From Flavobacteriaceae bacterium (GTDB taxonomy: Bacteria > Bacteroidota > Bacteroidia > Flavobacteriales > Flavobacteriaceae), in the NCBI GenBank assembly GCA_947472705.1, contig CANJDA010000002.1, positions 1 through 35,596 on the forward strand: DNA of 35,596 nt, written 5' to 3'. Positions within the stretch are counted from its first letter, which is position 1; each line of letters starts with the position of its first letter. The translations under genes and the position numbers were made by a program. Shown one piece after another: positions 9,385-25,318 of this stretch. Below the pieces are notes generated by a model. That model was not told where the DNA came from. It saw only the letters and a program-made list of their open reading frames with translations, and made no database searches.

Positions 9385-9392
9385 TAAATTTG
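9385..9392 (+). promoter_or_regulatory. candidate -7 element (TAAATTTG) for leuS
   Basis: TAAATTTG matches TAnnTTTG. It would give a ~200-nt leader containing the interspersed repeat. Confidence 0.35.
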
Positions 9393-9420
9393 TCGCTTAA
9401 ATTTTTTAGGCTTGTCCCAA

Positions 9421-9510
9421 ATTTAGTTTGGGAAGCGAATGGTTCGGGCTGTTTCAGTAAGCCATTTTCCCGCTTTCCGGGTTACACGGTAACCACTACA
9501 ATCGGGGCTA
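9421..9510 (-). repeat. interspersed repeat copy A (minus orientation)
   Basis: Reverse complement TAGCCCCGATTGTAGTGGTTACCGTGTAACCCGGAAAGCGGGAAAATGGCTTACTGAAACAGCCCGAACCATTCGCTTCC... aligns ungapped, 62/80 identical, with 23872-23951. Confidence 0.85.
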
Positions 9511-9597
9511 AAAAGTAAATGTATTGATATAAATAAGTAATGACTCGAACTCGAAGAGCGACAGCATGAGACCGATAAAAAACAGTATTAACGACGA

Positions 9598-12480
9598 ATG
9601 AAATATTTCCACGAAAAAATCGAAGCCAAATGGCAACAATATTGGGCACAAAACCAAACCTTCAAAGCAGAAAATCCTAGCTCCCCTACTTTTCAAGGAG
9701 GGGTGGCCGCGAATGCGGACGGGGTGGTTAAACCCAAGTATTATGTCCTCGACATGTTTCCTTATCCTTCGGGAGCAGGCTTACACGTGGGCCATCCACT
9801 GGGTTATATTGCTTCCGATATCGTGGCACGTTTCAAACGTCACAAAGGGTTCAACGTATTGCACCCACAAGGCTACGATTCTTTCGGATTACCAGCCGAA
9901 CAATACGCTATTCAAACTGGGCAACATCCGGAAAAAACCACTCGCGAAAACATTGCCCGTTACCGCGAGCAATTAGACAAAATAGGTTTCTCTTTTGATT
10001 GGAGTAGAGAAGTCCGTACTTCTAATCCCGATTATTACAAACACACGCAATGGATTTTCATCCAACTCTTCAACTCGTGGTACAACAAGGATACCGATAA
10101 AGCCGAAGACATCGCTACTTTGATAGCCATTTTCGAAAAAGCGGGTAACGCCACTGTGCATGCCGTGTGTGATGACAATATAGACATCTTCTTCCCTTCG
10201 GATTGGAATTCATATACCGAAGAAAAGAAACAACAAATACTACTACAATACCGTTTAACCTATTTGGCAGAAACTGAAGTCAACTGGTGTCCAGCACTAG
10301 GAACAGTTTTGGCTAACGACGAAATCGTAAACGGTGTCTCTGAAAGAGGAGGTCACCCAGTAATCCGCAAAAAAATGACGCAATGGTCAATGCGCATCTC
10401 TGCCTACGCCGAAAGATTATTGCAAGGATTAGAAACCATCGATTGGAGCGAATCCATCAAAGAAAGTCAAAGAAACTGGATTGGAAAATCCGTAGGAGCT
10501 GCAGTAGATTTTAAATTGAAACATTCAAACGAAGTCATTTCTGTTTTCACCACAAGACCCGATACCATCTTCGGAGTAACCTTTATGACCTTAGCTCCTG
10601 AACATGAATTGGTTTCCCAAATCACAACTCCTGAGCAAAAAGTAGCCGTTGAAAGTTATGTTGAAGCCACAGCCAAACGTTCCGAAAGAGAAAGAATGGC
10701 CGATGTTAAAACCATATCCGGAGTATTCACCGGTGCCTTTGCCGAACATCCGTTTACGAAAGAACCGATTCCGGTTTGGATAGGCGATTACGTCTTGGCA
10801 GGTTACGGAACTGGTGCCGTGATGGCCGTTCCTTGTGGAGACGAAAGAGATTATGCCTTTGCCAATTTCTTCAAAGGTCAATTGGGTATGCCCGAAATCA
10901 AAAACATTTTCAATCAAGATATTTCTCATGAAGCCTTTGCTTCTAAAGACGGTTTTGAATTGGTAAACTCCGATTTCCTTAACGGATTAGGCTACAAAGA
11001 AGGAACAAAGAAAATCATTGAGGCCTTAGAACAAATCGGACACGGGAAAGGGAAAACCAATTACCGCCTACGCGATGCGGTGTTTTCAAGACAACGCTAT
11101 TGGGGCGAACCCTTCCCAGTATATTATGTGAATGGCTTACCGCAAATGATTGAAAGCAAATATTTACCCATCGTATTGCCCGAAGTAGAGAAATACCTTC
11201 CTACCGAAGACGGCCAACCGCCGTTAGGAAACTCCACCAAATGGGCTTGGTATATAGTAACCAACGAAGTGGTAGATAATGATAAAATTGACAACAACAC
11301 CGTTTTCCCATTAGAGTTAAACACCATGCCGGGTTGGGCAGGAAGCTCATGGTACTGGATGCGCTATATGGATGCACACAACGAATCCGAGTTTGCCTCT
11401 GCCGATGCCTTGAAATACTGGGAAAACGTAGACTTATACATAGGCGGTAGCGAGCACGCTACAGGCCACTTGCTATACTCTCGTTTTTGGAACAAATTCC
11501 TAAAAGACCGTGGCTACGCCCCAACCGAAGAACCGTTCAAGAAGCTAATCAATCAAGGAATGATTTTGGGGATGAGTGCGTTTGTGTATAGAAGTCAAGA
11601 TTCTAAAAAACTATATTCAAAAGGATTAATTGCTGGGGAAAATGTTCACCCAATCCACGTTGACCTTGCTGTCATCAATGACATCACCAACGAATTAGAT
11701 ATCGAAGCTTTCAAAAAGCATCCACTATATACTGATTATGCAAATGCCGAATTCATTCTAGAAAACGGTAAATACATCGTAGGCCGCGAAGTCGAAAAAA
11801 TGTCCAAATCCAAATACAATGTGGTGAATCCCGATGACATCTGTAACGATTATGGCGCAGATACGTTACGTCTTTACGAAATGTTCTTAGGGCCTTTGGA
11901 ACAAGCCAAACCTTGGAACACCGCAGGAATTACGGGAGTATCAGGCTTCTTGAAGAAACTATGGCGTTTGTATTTTGACGACAATACCGGCTTAAATATT
12001 TCAGATGCTGAACCAACAGCCGACATGTACAAAACCTTACACAAAACCATCAAAAAAGTAACCGAGGATATCGAGAACTTCTCGTTCAATACATCAGTGT
12101 CGCAGTTTATGATTTGTGTCAACGAATTGGCTTCGATGAAATGCAACTACCGAAAAATATTGGAACCATTGGCCATAGTAATATCGCCTTATGCCCCGCA
12201 TATAGCCGAGGAACTTTGGGAGCAATTAGGTCACGAAGGGTCTATCTCAACCGTTGCTTTCCCTATCTGTGAAGAAAAGTACTTGGTAGAAAGCGAAAAA
12301 GAATACCCAGTTTCCTTTAACGGAAAAATGCGTTTCACCATCAAATTGCCTTTGGATTTAACCGTGTCACAAATACAAGAAATCGTATTGGCCGACGAAA
12401 GAACCATCAAACAGTTAGAAGGAAGAACTCCGAATAAGGTTATTATCGTACCGGGGAAAGTGATTAACTTGGTTGGGTAG
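9598..12480 (+). CDS. leuS: leucine--tRNA ligase
   Basis: 960 aa; 'YVLDMFPYPSGAGLHVGHPLGY' (HIGH-type motif), 'KMSKSKYNVVNPDD'. Confidence 0.98.
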   Translation: MKYFHEKIEAKWQQYWAQNQTFKAENPSSPTFQGGVAANADGVVKPKYYVLDMFPYPSGAGLHVGHPLGYIASDIVARFKRHKGFNVLHPQGYDSFGLPAEQYAIQTGQHPEKTTRENIARYREQLDKIGFSFDWSREVRTSNPDYYKHTQWIFIQLFNSWYNKDTDKAEDIATLIAIFEKAGNATVHAVCDDNIDIFFPSDWNSYTEEKKQQILLQYRLTYLAETEVNWCPALGTVLANDEIVNGVSERGGHPVIRKKMTQWSMRISAYAERLLQGLETIDWSESIKESQRNWIGKSVGAAVDFKLKHSNEVISVFTTRPDTIFGVTFMTLAPEHELVSQITTPEQKVAVESYVEATAKRSERERMADVKTISGVFTGAFAEHPFTKEPIPVWIGDYVLAGYGTGAVMAVPCGDERDYAFANFFKGQLGMPEIKNIFNQDISHEAFASKDGFELVNSDFLNGLGYKEGTKKIIEALEQIGHGKGKTNYRLRDAVFSRQRYWGEPFPVYYVNGLPQMIESKYLPIVLPEVEKYLPTEDGQPPLGNSTKWAWYIVTNEVVDNDKIDNNTVFPLELNTMPGWAGSSWYWMRYMDAHNESEFASADALKYWENVDLYIGGSEHATGHLLYSRFWNKFLKDRGYAPTEEPFKKLINQGMILGMSAFVYRSQDSKKLYSKGLIAGENVHPIHVDLAVINDITNELDIEAFKKHPLYTDYANAEFILENGKYIVGREVEKMSKSKYNVVNPDDICNDYGADTLRLYEMFLGPLEQAKPWNTAGITGVSGFLKKLWRLYFDDNTGLNISDAEPTADMYKTLHKTIKKVTEDIENFSFNTSVSQFMICVNELASMKCNYRKILEPLAIVISPYAPHIAEELWEQLGHEGSISTVAFPICEEKYLVESEKEYPVSFNGKMRFTIKLPLDLTVSQIQEIVLADERTIKQLEGRTPNKVIIVPGKVINLVG
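9676..9729. repeat. 54-nt GC-rich palindromic insertion inside leuS (18 codons, in frame)
   Basis: CCTAGCTCCCCTACTTTTCAAGGAGGGGTGGCCGCGAATGCGGACGGGGTGGTT; stems CCCCTACTT/AAGGAGGGG and CCGC/GCGG. Encodes PSSPTFQGGVAANADGVV between the conserved 'TFKAEN' and 'KPKYYVLDMFPYPSG'. Confidence 0.75.
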
Positions 12481-23821: not shown

Positions 23822-23871
23822 TTGGTAAAGATAATTAGATTTGAGAAAAAACAAACGAAAAGATTTTCTTC

Positions 23872-23951
23872 TAGCCCTGATGGGAGTGGCTACCGTGTAG
23901 CGCGGACAGCAGGAATATGGATAACTGATAAATCCCGAGCCTTTCGCTCCT
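23872..23951 (+). repeat. interspersed repeat copy B (plus orientation)
   Basis: TAGCCCTGATGGGAGTGGCTACCGTGTAGCGCGGACAGCAGGAATATGGATAACTGATAAATCCCGAGCCTTTCGCTCCT; 62/80 ungapped identity to the reverse complement of 9431-9510. Confidence 0.85.
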
Positions 23952-23982
23952 CAAAATTTTCAAATTTTCAAATTTTCAAATT
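23952..23982. repeat. tandem (C)AAATTTT repeat, ~4 units of 8 bp
   Basis: CAAAATTTTCAAATTTTCAAATTTTCAAATT directly after repeat copy B. Confidence 0.8.
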
Positions 23983-23994
23983 GGGTAATTAACT

Positions 23995-24002
23995 TATCTT
24001 TG
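23995..24002 (+). promoter_or_regulatory. -7 element (TATCTTTG) for tyrS
   Basis: TATCTTTGCGC, 21 nt upstream of ATG 24023; lies downstream of repeat B. Confidence 0.5.
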
Positions 24003-24022: not shown

Positions 24023-25318
24023 ATGAAGAATTTAGTAGCAGAATTGCAATGGCGTGGGTTGGTTCACGATATTATGCCCGGAACTGAAGAGCAACTTTTA
24101 AAGGAAATGACCACTACTTATATTGGGTTTGACCCAACGAGTGATTCGTTACATATTGGGAGTTTGGTGCCGATTATTTTGTTGGTGCACATAGAGAGAT
24201 TTGGTCACAAACCTATTGCTTTGGTGGGAGGTGCTACTGGAATGATAGGTGATCCTTCGGGGAAATCGGATGAAAGAAACTTGCTTGATGAAGCGACTTT
24301 AGAGAAAAATGTAGCTGGAATTAAAGCGGTATTGTCTCGATTTTTAGATTTCAATTCGACTGCAGCTAATGCTCCAATTTTAGTGAACAATTATGATTGG
24401 ATGAAAGATTTCTCGTTTATCAATTTTGCTCGTGACGTGGGGAAACGTATTACGGTGAACTATATGATGGCGAAGGATTCGGTGAAGAAACGTTTGAGTG
24501 GAGAAGGCGGAGAAGGGATGAGTTTTACTGAGTTTACCTATCAATTAATTCAAGGTTACGATTTTCATCATTTGTATAAAACGCATCACTGTTTGTTGCA
24601 AATGGGAGGCAGTGACCAATGGGGAAATATTACCACAGGAACCGAATTGGTTCGCAGAATGAATGGCGAAGGTGCTAAAGCGTTTGCGATGACTTGTCCG
24701 TTGATTACTAAAGCAGATGGTTCTAAATTTGGGAAGTCAGAAGGAGGCAATGTTTGGTTGACTGCAGATAAGACTTCGGTTTATAAATTTTACCAATTTT
24801 GGTTGAATACTACAGATGTGGATGCTGAGAAATACATAAAGATTTTCACTTTTTTAGATAAAGATACTATTGACTCTTTGATTACTGAGCATCAAACAGC
24901 ACCTCATTTACGTGTGTTGCAAAAAAGATTAGCGGAAGAGATTACCACTTTTGTACACGGAAAAGAAGAGTTGGAAAAAGCGGTATTTGCTTCGGGGGCT
25001 TTCTTTAGTCCTACTATGGATGATTTAAAGAAGCTGGATACAAAGACTTTCTTAGAAGTTTTTGAAGGGGTTCCTCAAGCGGAAATACAGATGGCTGATC
25101 TTGAAAATGGTTTAGATATGATAGCGGCACTTTCGGCTCAGACAGGATTTTTGGCGTCTAATAGTGATGCCCGTCGTGAGTTGCAACAGAATTCAATTTC
25201 ATTGAATAAAGAAAAAGTGGCTGCTGATTATAGTATTACAACTAAAGACTTGATTAATAATCAGTTTTTGATGTTGCAAAAAGGGAAGAAGAATTATTAT
25301 TTGATAAAGGTTATATAA
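24023..25318 (+). CDS. tyrS: tyrosine--tRNA ligase
   Basis: '[19 protein letters not shown]', '[16 protein letters not shown]', '[12 protein letters not shown]', C-terminal S4-like domain. Confidence 0.98.

Follow-up and report, generated by a model that had tools for sequence, protein, structure and literature searches.

Two similar non-coding segments of a Flavobacterium contig, one upstream of leuS and the other upstream of tyrS, raise the question of what kind of element they are and whether it belongs to these two genes or to the genome at large. In the window, by which we mean the whole 35,596-nucleotide stretch of DNA that was analysed, an inverted-repeat search returned 9427-9513 and 23869-23955 as the longest inverted pair, which is 78% complementary and, at 87 nt, twice as long as the second-longest pair of 41 nt. 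This confirms the inverted match between segments 14 kb apart that had been described in a first-pass annotation of the sequence, and the hairpin placed there at 9480-9494 was also correct in letters and position, reading GGTTACACGGTAACC on the plus strand, as was its counterpart at 23889-23901 in the second copy. The same annotation had made the element 80 nt long. The repeat stands and its extent does not: model R1, a short-form model built from 58 copies with these two among them, matches the entire element at 9420-9528 on the minus strand (copy A, 104.4 bits) and at 23854-23962 on the plus strand (copy B, 109.3 bits).

Layout of the two copies and their neighbouring genes

On the minus strand, copy A comprises a hairpin core (TAGCCC...GCGGG, 9469-9510), delimited from the sequence, alignments A1 and A2 and pair counts, with the apical hairpin GGTTACCGTGTAACC at 9480-9494, and the 3' extension of the short form at 9427-9468, which has no internal covariation in the alignments. 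Copy B, on the plus strand, has its core (TAGCCC...GCAGG, from the sequence and alignments) at 23872-23913, its apical hairpin GCTACCGTGTAGC at 23889-23901 and, from the alignments, its 3' extension at 23914-23951. Copy A is followed by leuS, encoding leucine--tRNA ligase (9598-12480, plus strand; an ORF with an NCBIfam leuS_bact match of 1e-108 over the first 330 aa), and copy B by tyrS, encoding tyrosine--tRNA ligase (24023-25318, plus strand; an ORF with an NCBIfam tyrS match of 1e-99), with a TATCTTTG box between copy B and tyrS at 23995-24002 on the plus strand. Upstream of copy A, TAAATTTG at 9385-9392 on the plus strand is, from the sequence and the leuS upstream regions of relatives, the probable leuS promoter box, which we take to be a Bacteroidetes-type -7 box, and it is kept in relatives both with and without the element. 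These letters had been read in the first-pass annotation as the transcription start; as a -7 box, they would place the start of leuS transcription a few nucleotides further downstream.

Within leuS itself, the N-terminal coding region contains an in-frame stretch, GCTCCCCTACTTTTCAAGGAGGGGTGGCCGCGAATGCGGACGGGGTGGTT (9680-9729), that is shorter or missing in most relatives' leuS. The host genome contains as many as 14 DNA matches related to it, of which several are weak. This stretch appears to be a palindromic repeat that has entered a gene.

Copies A and B belong to a short subclass of Flavo-1

At the default Rfam threshold there were zero matches in the window. An E-value-based Rfam search matched RF01705 (Flavo-1) to both copies, at 9462-9513 on the minus strand (34.1 bits) and at 23869-23920 on the plus strand (34.5 bits), below the 42-bit gathering threshold. 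The orthologous copies at the leuS site of two relatives (G276 and G215) have a longer apical stem and score 51.0 and 49.9 bits, above the threshold, and it is mainly for this reason that copy A is filed as a Flavo-1 subclass despite its own score. The family, which the first-pass annotation had left unnamed, originates from Weinberg et al. 2010 (PMC2864571), and copies A and B share with it the consensus arms UUUUAGCCccGAUuG and CGgAaAGCggGAaaa, the outer stem, the internal loops, the occurrence in Flavobacteriales and the many copies; arms and outer stem are present, and covariation is seen across the aligned copies. Unlike the Rfam model, which has a long stem at this position, A and B have a short apical stem in a segment of 13-15 nt, and they carry a 3' extension that is missing from the model.

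When listed with their flanks, the host copies fall into two forms. The long form has an ATCC-T-run, a variable loop and an A-run-GAT, and its 3' end is GGGAAATAGCTCCTA; the short form, to which A and B belong, has GGCTACC-nn-GTAGC or GGCACC-GAA-GTAGAGC, usually followed by an extension of 35-40 nt ending in CGCTCCTA. A TAG start and a CTA end are common to both forms, and the terminal TAG of the element often doubles as the stop codon of the neighbouring gene. Copies A and B are thus a short-apex, 3'-extended subclass of Flavo-1, one that is overlooked and under-described and is missed by the Rfam threshold.

The host genome is a 2.2-Mb Flavobacterium assembly in 236 contigs, 83% complete. 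A 110-nt query around copy A gave ~20 matches in it at E < 0.01, which places the repeat beyond chance, the best other copy being 85% identical (9e-29). In all, the A/B pair has about 37 relatives in this genome, where R1 matches at 35 places and Rfam Flavo-1 at 32, with 12 of the 32 above threshold. Across the genus, R1 has matches at E <= 1e-6 in 68 of 81 Flavobacterium genomes, and some of the species have tens of copies; long-form copies will be present among the weaker matches. Flavo-1 as a whole was found in 76 of the 81 genomes of the genus and in 10 of 61 genera of the order, and its copy number ranges between species from none to at least 50. Since it is missing from some genomes and some sites, its copies are dispensable. 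Five Flavobacterium genomes (G019, G021, G034, G059 and G077) have no Flavo-1 match at E <= 0.001, most others having tens, and these five should be useful for finding a protein that accompanies the element. Gene calls and orthology came from our own scripts and BLAST, and statistics ignore phylogeny unless stated. By these calls, none of 135 long-form copies genus-wide lies inside a gene; among three close relatives, two matches were scored within a gene by a simple gene caller, one of which (153-nt) is probably spurious.

Most host copies are retained at the same sites

The neighbourhoods of 31 host copies were compared with Flavo-1 matches in three relatives (G135, G193 and G084). For 23 of the 31, G135 has a copy at the orthologous site in the same orientation, with flanking DNA ~80% identical, against a chance expectation of about 0.5 shared sites (assuming ~2800 intergenic slots), and at least three further host copies are common to G193 or G084. 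This indicates that most copies are inherited rather than new insertions. Gains or losses have taken place as well. One site, L043, is occupied in the host and in G215, G166 and G027, with no recognisable element in G193 and G084, and Flavo-1 is missing from the leuS site of several relatives. A clean insertion boundary was not seen at leuS or L043, the flanks being too diverged; likewise, neither a target duplication nor a clean empty site was seen, since element-free sites exist with flanks too diverged to show a duplication. Of the terminal inverted repeats that mark a MITE, the copies have only the TAG...CTA ends.

The hairpin changes by paired substitutions

Orthologous copies were also compared for base pairing. 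In 37 such comparisons, the Y-R pair differs nine times, with Watson-Crick pairing on both sides in eight and a wobble in one, and the N-N' pair differs 11 times, with ten Watson-Crick and one broken, so that, of the 20 changes seen in place at these two variable pairs, 18 keep Watson-Crick pairing; several host copies are counted two or three times among these comparisons, and the events are not independent. Identity across the same comparisons is 89% in the fixed arms and 66% in the flanks. Between copy B and its G135 orthologue, a G-C pair has become A-T with the remaining hairpin almost unchanged. The change from T-A to C-G at the third pair of the apical stem, noticed earlier between copies A and B, is real and is one among several compensatory changes. 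In 135 long-form copies genus-wide, both pairs are canonical in 135 of 135 (133 Watson-Crick at Y-R), with all four Watson-Crick types present at each. For the 58 short-form copies, the covariation score was above 500 of 500 shuffles and above every slid control, and within their 3' extension no covariation was found. Scarcity of copies, a lack of covariation or a gene remnant behind the identity, the outcomes named in the first-pass annotation as contrary to its proposal, were looked for: copies are many, covariation is strong and there is no gene remnant. The proposal is supported in that the repeat is interspersed, non-coding and typical of Flavobacterium, and in that its hairpin is conserved and covaries.

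In 9 of the 37 orthologous comparisons, the length of the apical segment differs by more than 6 nt. Core and apex often change at the same time, so some of the paired substitutions may reflect replacement of the whole hairpin by another copy instead of stepwise compensation. In four copies (L053, L319, L353 and L036), the A.G mismatch that the stem otherwise conserves appears reversed as G.A, which argues for a real purine-purine pair. In five others (L278, L272, L275, L404 and L412), the long-form apical loop holds other palindromes, such as CCCTTCGACTGCGCTCAGGGTGAC or CTGAAACAAGTTCAGGAT, and these are repeats nested in the Flavo-1 apex. Integron attC sites offer a parallel, with arms that are conserved on a folded single strand and an apex that varies in length; no integrase or cassette context was seen, and the resemblance is an analogy only.

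Folding strand and gene context

On the Rfam strand of the long form, G-T pairs outnumber A-C pairs 23:3 (p about 1e-4, ignoring relatedness), and in the short form the figures are 15 to about 3, the A-C cells having been read by eye from the alignment. Since a G-T wobble reads as an A-C mismatch on the complementary strand, the strand that folds appears, from this bias, to be the Rfam strand, which is minus at copy A and plus at copy B. This is weakened by the strand-specific detection with covariance models, which favours the same direction, and by relatedness, which also affects the count. Taken alone, A and B have unremarkable folding energies on either strand, as RNA or as DNA. The Rfam strand runs antisense to leuS at copy A, and with the -7 box at 9385-9392 upstream of the copy, the leuS mRNA would carry the other strand.

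Between co-directional genes, long-form copies show no preference in orientation (47 vs 39). Short-form copies mostly precede the next gene in antisense orientation to it, with counts of 11:3 in the host, where the bias was spotted post hoc, and 9:1 among short-form copies at other sites in two relatives (G135 and G084). Of the 36 genes that have their start towards a host copy, 6 encode aminoacyl-tRNA synthetases, against 0 of 25 that have their stop towards one (Fisher p 0.07); the six are valS, tyrS, lysS, leuS, alaS and cysS. Genus-wide figures are about 7 of 125 start-facing and 1 of 96 stop-facing genes. We treat this excess as a lead only, because orthologous sites recur in the counts and core genes are retained longer. 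Convergent gene sites are the rarest class (12 of 130). No replication-strand bias of copies was found in G135 (p 0.12), and TAnnTTTG boxes showed no apparent excess upstream of the folding strand.

Comparison with REP elements

The first-pass annotation had suggested a MITE-like or REP-like element, and of this the REP-like look holds, without the RAYT link that defines REP elements, and an active MITE is not supported. Like REP elements with RAYT (TnpA-REP) (PMC3733652, PMC6006769), Flavo-1 consists of many short, dispersed, extragenic imperfect hairpins in which a folded single strand would matter. It differs in the foot of the stem: by the definition of REP in PMC3733652, a GTAG-type tetranucleotide stands there, whereas A and B have no GTAG or GTGG foot (TTTTAG/TTCTAG before the stem), and in Flavo-1 the TAG is invariant and the preceding G is not conserved. 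It also differs in having no linked Y1 transposase and in being retained long at the same sites. Only 3 of 70 Y1_Tnp loci have a copy nearby (within about 1.5 kb, 1 of 30 and 2 of 40), 20 RAYT loci were examined by pattern search, and complete genomes rich in copies lack Y1_Tnp matches, the single-contig genome G074 having at least 50 Flavo-1 copies and zero Y1_Tnp matches; a RAYT/REP link was rejected on this basis. CGTC-tagged palindromic repeats (PMC3733652) resemble Flavo-1 in occurring in Bacteroidetes, among other phyla, and in lacking a dedicated transposase, but they end in CGTC and also occur within genes, in contrast to the TAG...CTA ends of A and B and to the extragenic placement of the 135 long-form copies.

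A single Y1_Tnp gene was found in the host (L060 1483-1950; G000:C13:6150-6494), and it has its own CCCGTTAGGGAT repeats, with 13 CCCxTTAGGG-type palindromes in a locus of 3.3 kb. These repeats are a separate REP-like family and not Flavo-1.

Weighing of alternative explanations

The position of copy A between a conserved -7 box and leuS, together with the six synthetase genes among the start-facing neighbours, would fit a structured RNA leader that regulates leuS and also tyrS, such as an aminoacyl-tRNA synthetase attenuator, and a structured RNA in the leuS leader had been raised in the first-pass annotation. This is not supported for leuS, as the conserved fold is not on the mRNA strand: Flavo-1 matches copy A on the minus strand, the wobble bias agrees, and similar copies lie beside dozens of unrelated genes. 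The six synthetase genes split 3 sense to 3 antisense, the -7 box downstream of copy B would place B outside the tyrS transcript, and the element is missing at leuS in several relatives, all of which makes a synthetase leader highly improbable. An intrinsic terminator or 3'-end stabiliser of the upstream gene would fit the frequent position of the element directly 3' of a stop codon and the frequent use of its terminal TAG as the neighbour's stop codon, but the stem has no T-run on either strand, being followed by the A-runs GGGAAAA and GGGCTAAAA, a separate T-tract terminator adjoins the element at L043, and the convergent sites are the rarest; we give this reading hardly any credence.

A free-standing or antisense small RNA, transcribed on the Rfam strand from its own promoters and acting in trans or against the neighbouring mRNA, agrees with the Rfam classification of Flavo-1 as an sRNA gene, with the one-strand wobble bias and with the mostly antisense placement of the short form. 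It is nevertheless unlikely, given tens of copies beside unrelated genes, the lack of an apparent TAnnTTTG excess ahead of the folding strand, and the F. psychrophilum transcriptome (PMC9723704), in which Flavo-1 matches lie sense or antisense without preference, many are untranscribed, and no real clue to function emerged. Literature searches for a function of Flavo-1 found no paper assigning one. About as unlikely, in our view, is a decaying or still mobile selfish repeat of MITE or REP type without a host function. Dispersal at unrelated sites, the wide range of copy number between species, the patchy presence at leuS and L043, and the frequent use of the terminal TAG...CTA as the neighbour's stop codon, as insertion at gene ends might produce, all speak for it; against it stand the persistence of copies at shared sites in diverged species, where their pairing is preserved, the failure to find a linked Y1 transposase, and the target duplication and clean empty site that were not seen in these diverged flanks. 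Same-site retention with in-place pair changes argues against an element that merely hops.

The reading that we prefer, with a probability of roughly 0.6, is that A and B are dispersed members of Flavo-1, a mostly vertically inherited, REP-like hairpin that would act through a folded strand bound by the host. Its parts are not equally firm. Identity and inheritance we hold to be very probable, and the host factor, the weakest step, is put forward tentatively. Flavo-1 would have spread by copying long ago and would now be largely immobile, each hairpin being kept through a folded single strand, as an ssDNA hairpin or as RNA, bound by a putative host factor. In kind it would thus resemble REP elements, as a hairpin that lies outside genes at their borders, and it would not be a regulator specific to leuS or tyrS. 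Action as single-stranded DNA is in our view more likely than action as RNA, because the orientation of the long form to genes is free and no promoter was seen with the fold. At the level of sequence comparison, the data speak for copies that have long stayed in place and for selection that acts on the fold of one strand. A bolder extension, which we consider rather doubtful, is that nearly every Flavo-1 copy is individually functional in place, bordering housekeeping genes (with synthetases over-represented) and folding on one strand into a hairpin of ssDNA or antisense RNA, and that the copies are genome-wide sites read by a putative flavobacterial protein.

Flavo-1 has been listed as a structured RNA candidate since 2010; the family is known and the short variant is new. 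The copies described here give four handles on it, namely a subclass that falls below the threshold, a probable folding strand, the sharing of sites between species with pair changes in place, and the absence of a RAYT link. They also indicate that a Flavo-1 match in a 5' leader need not mean a leader regulator.
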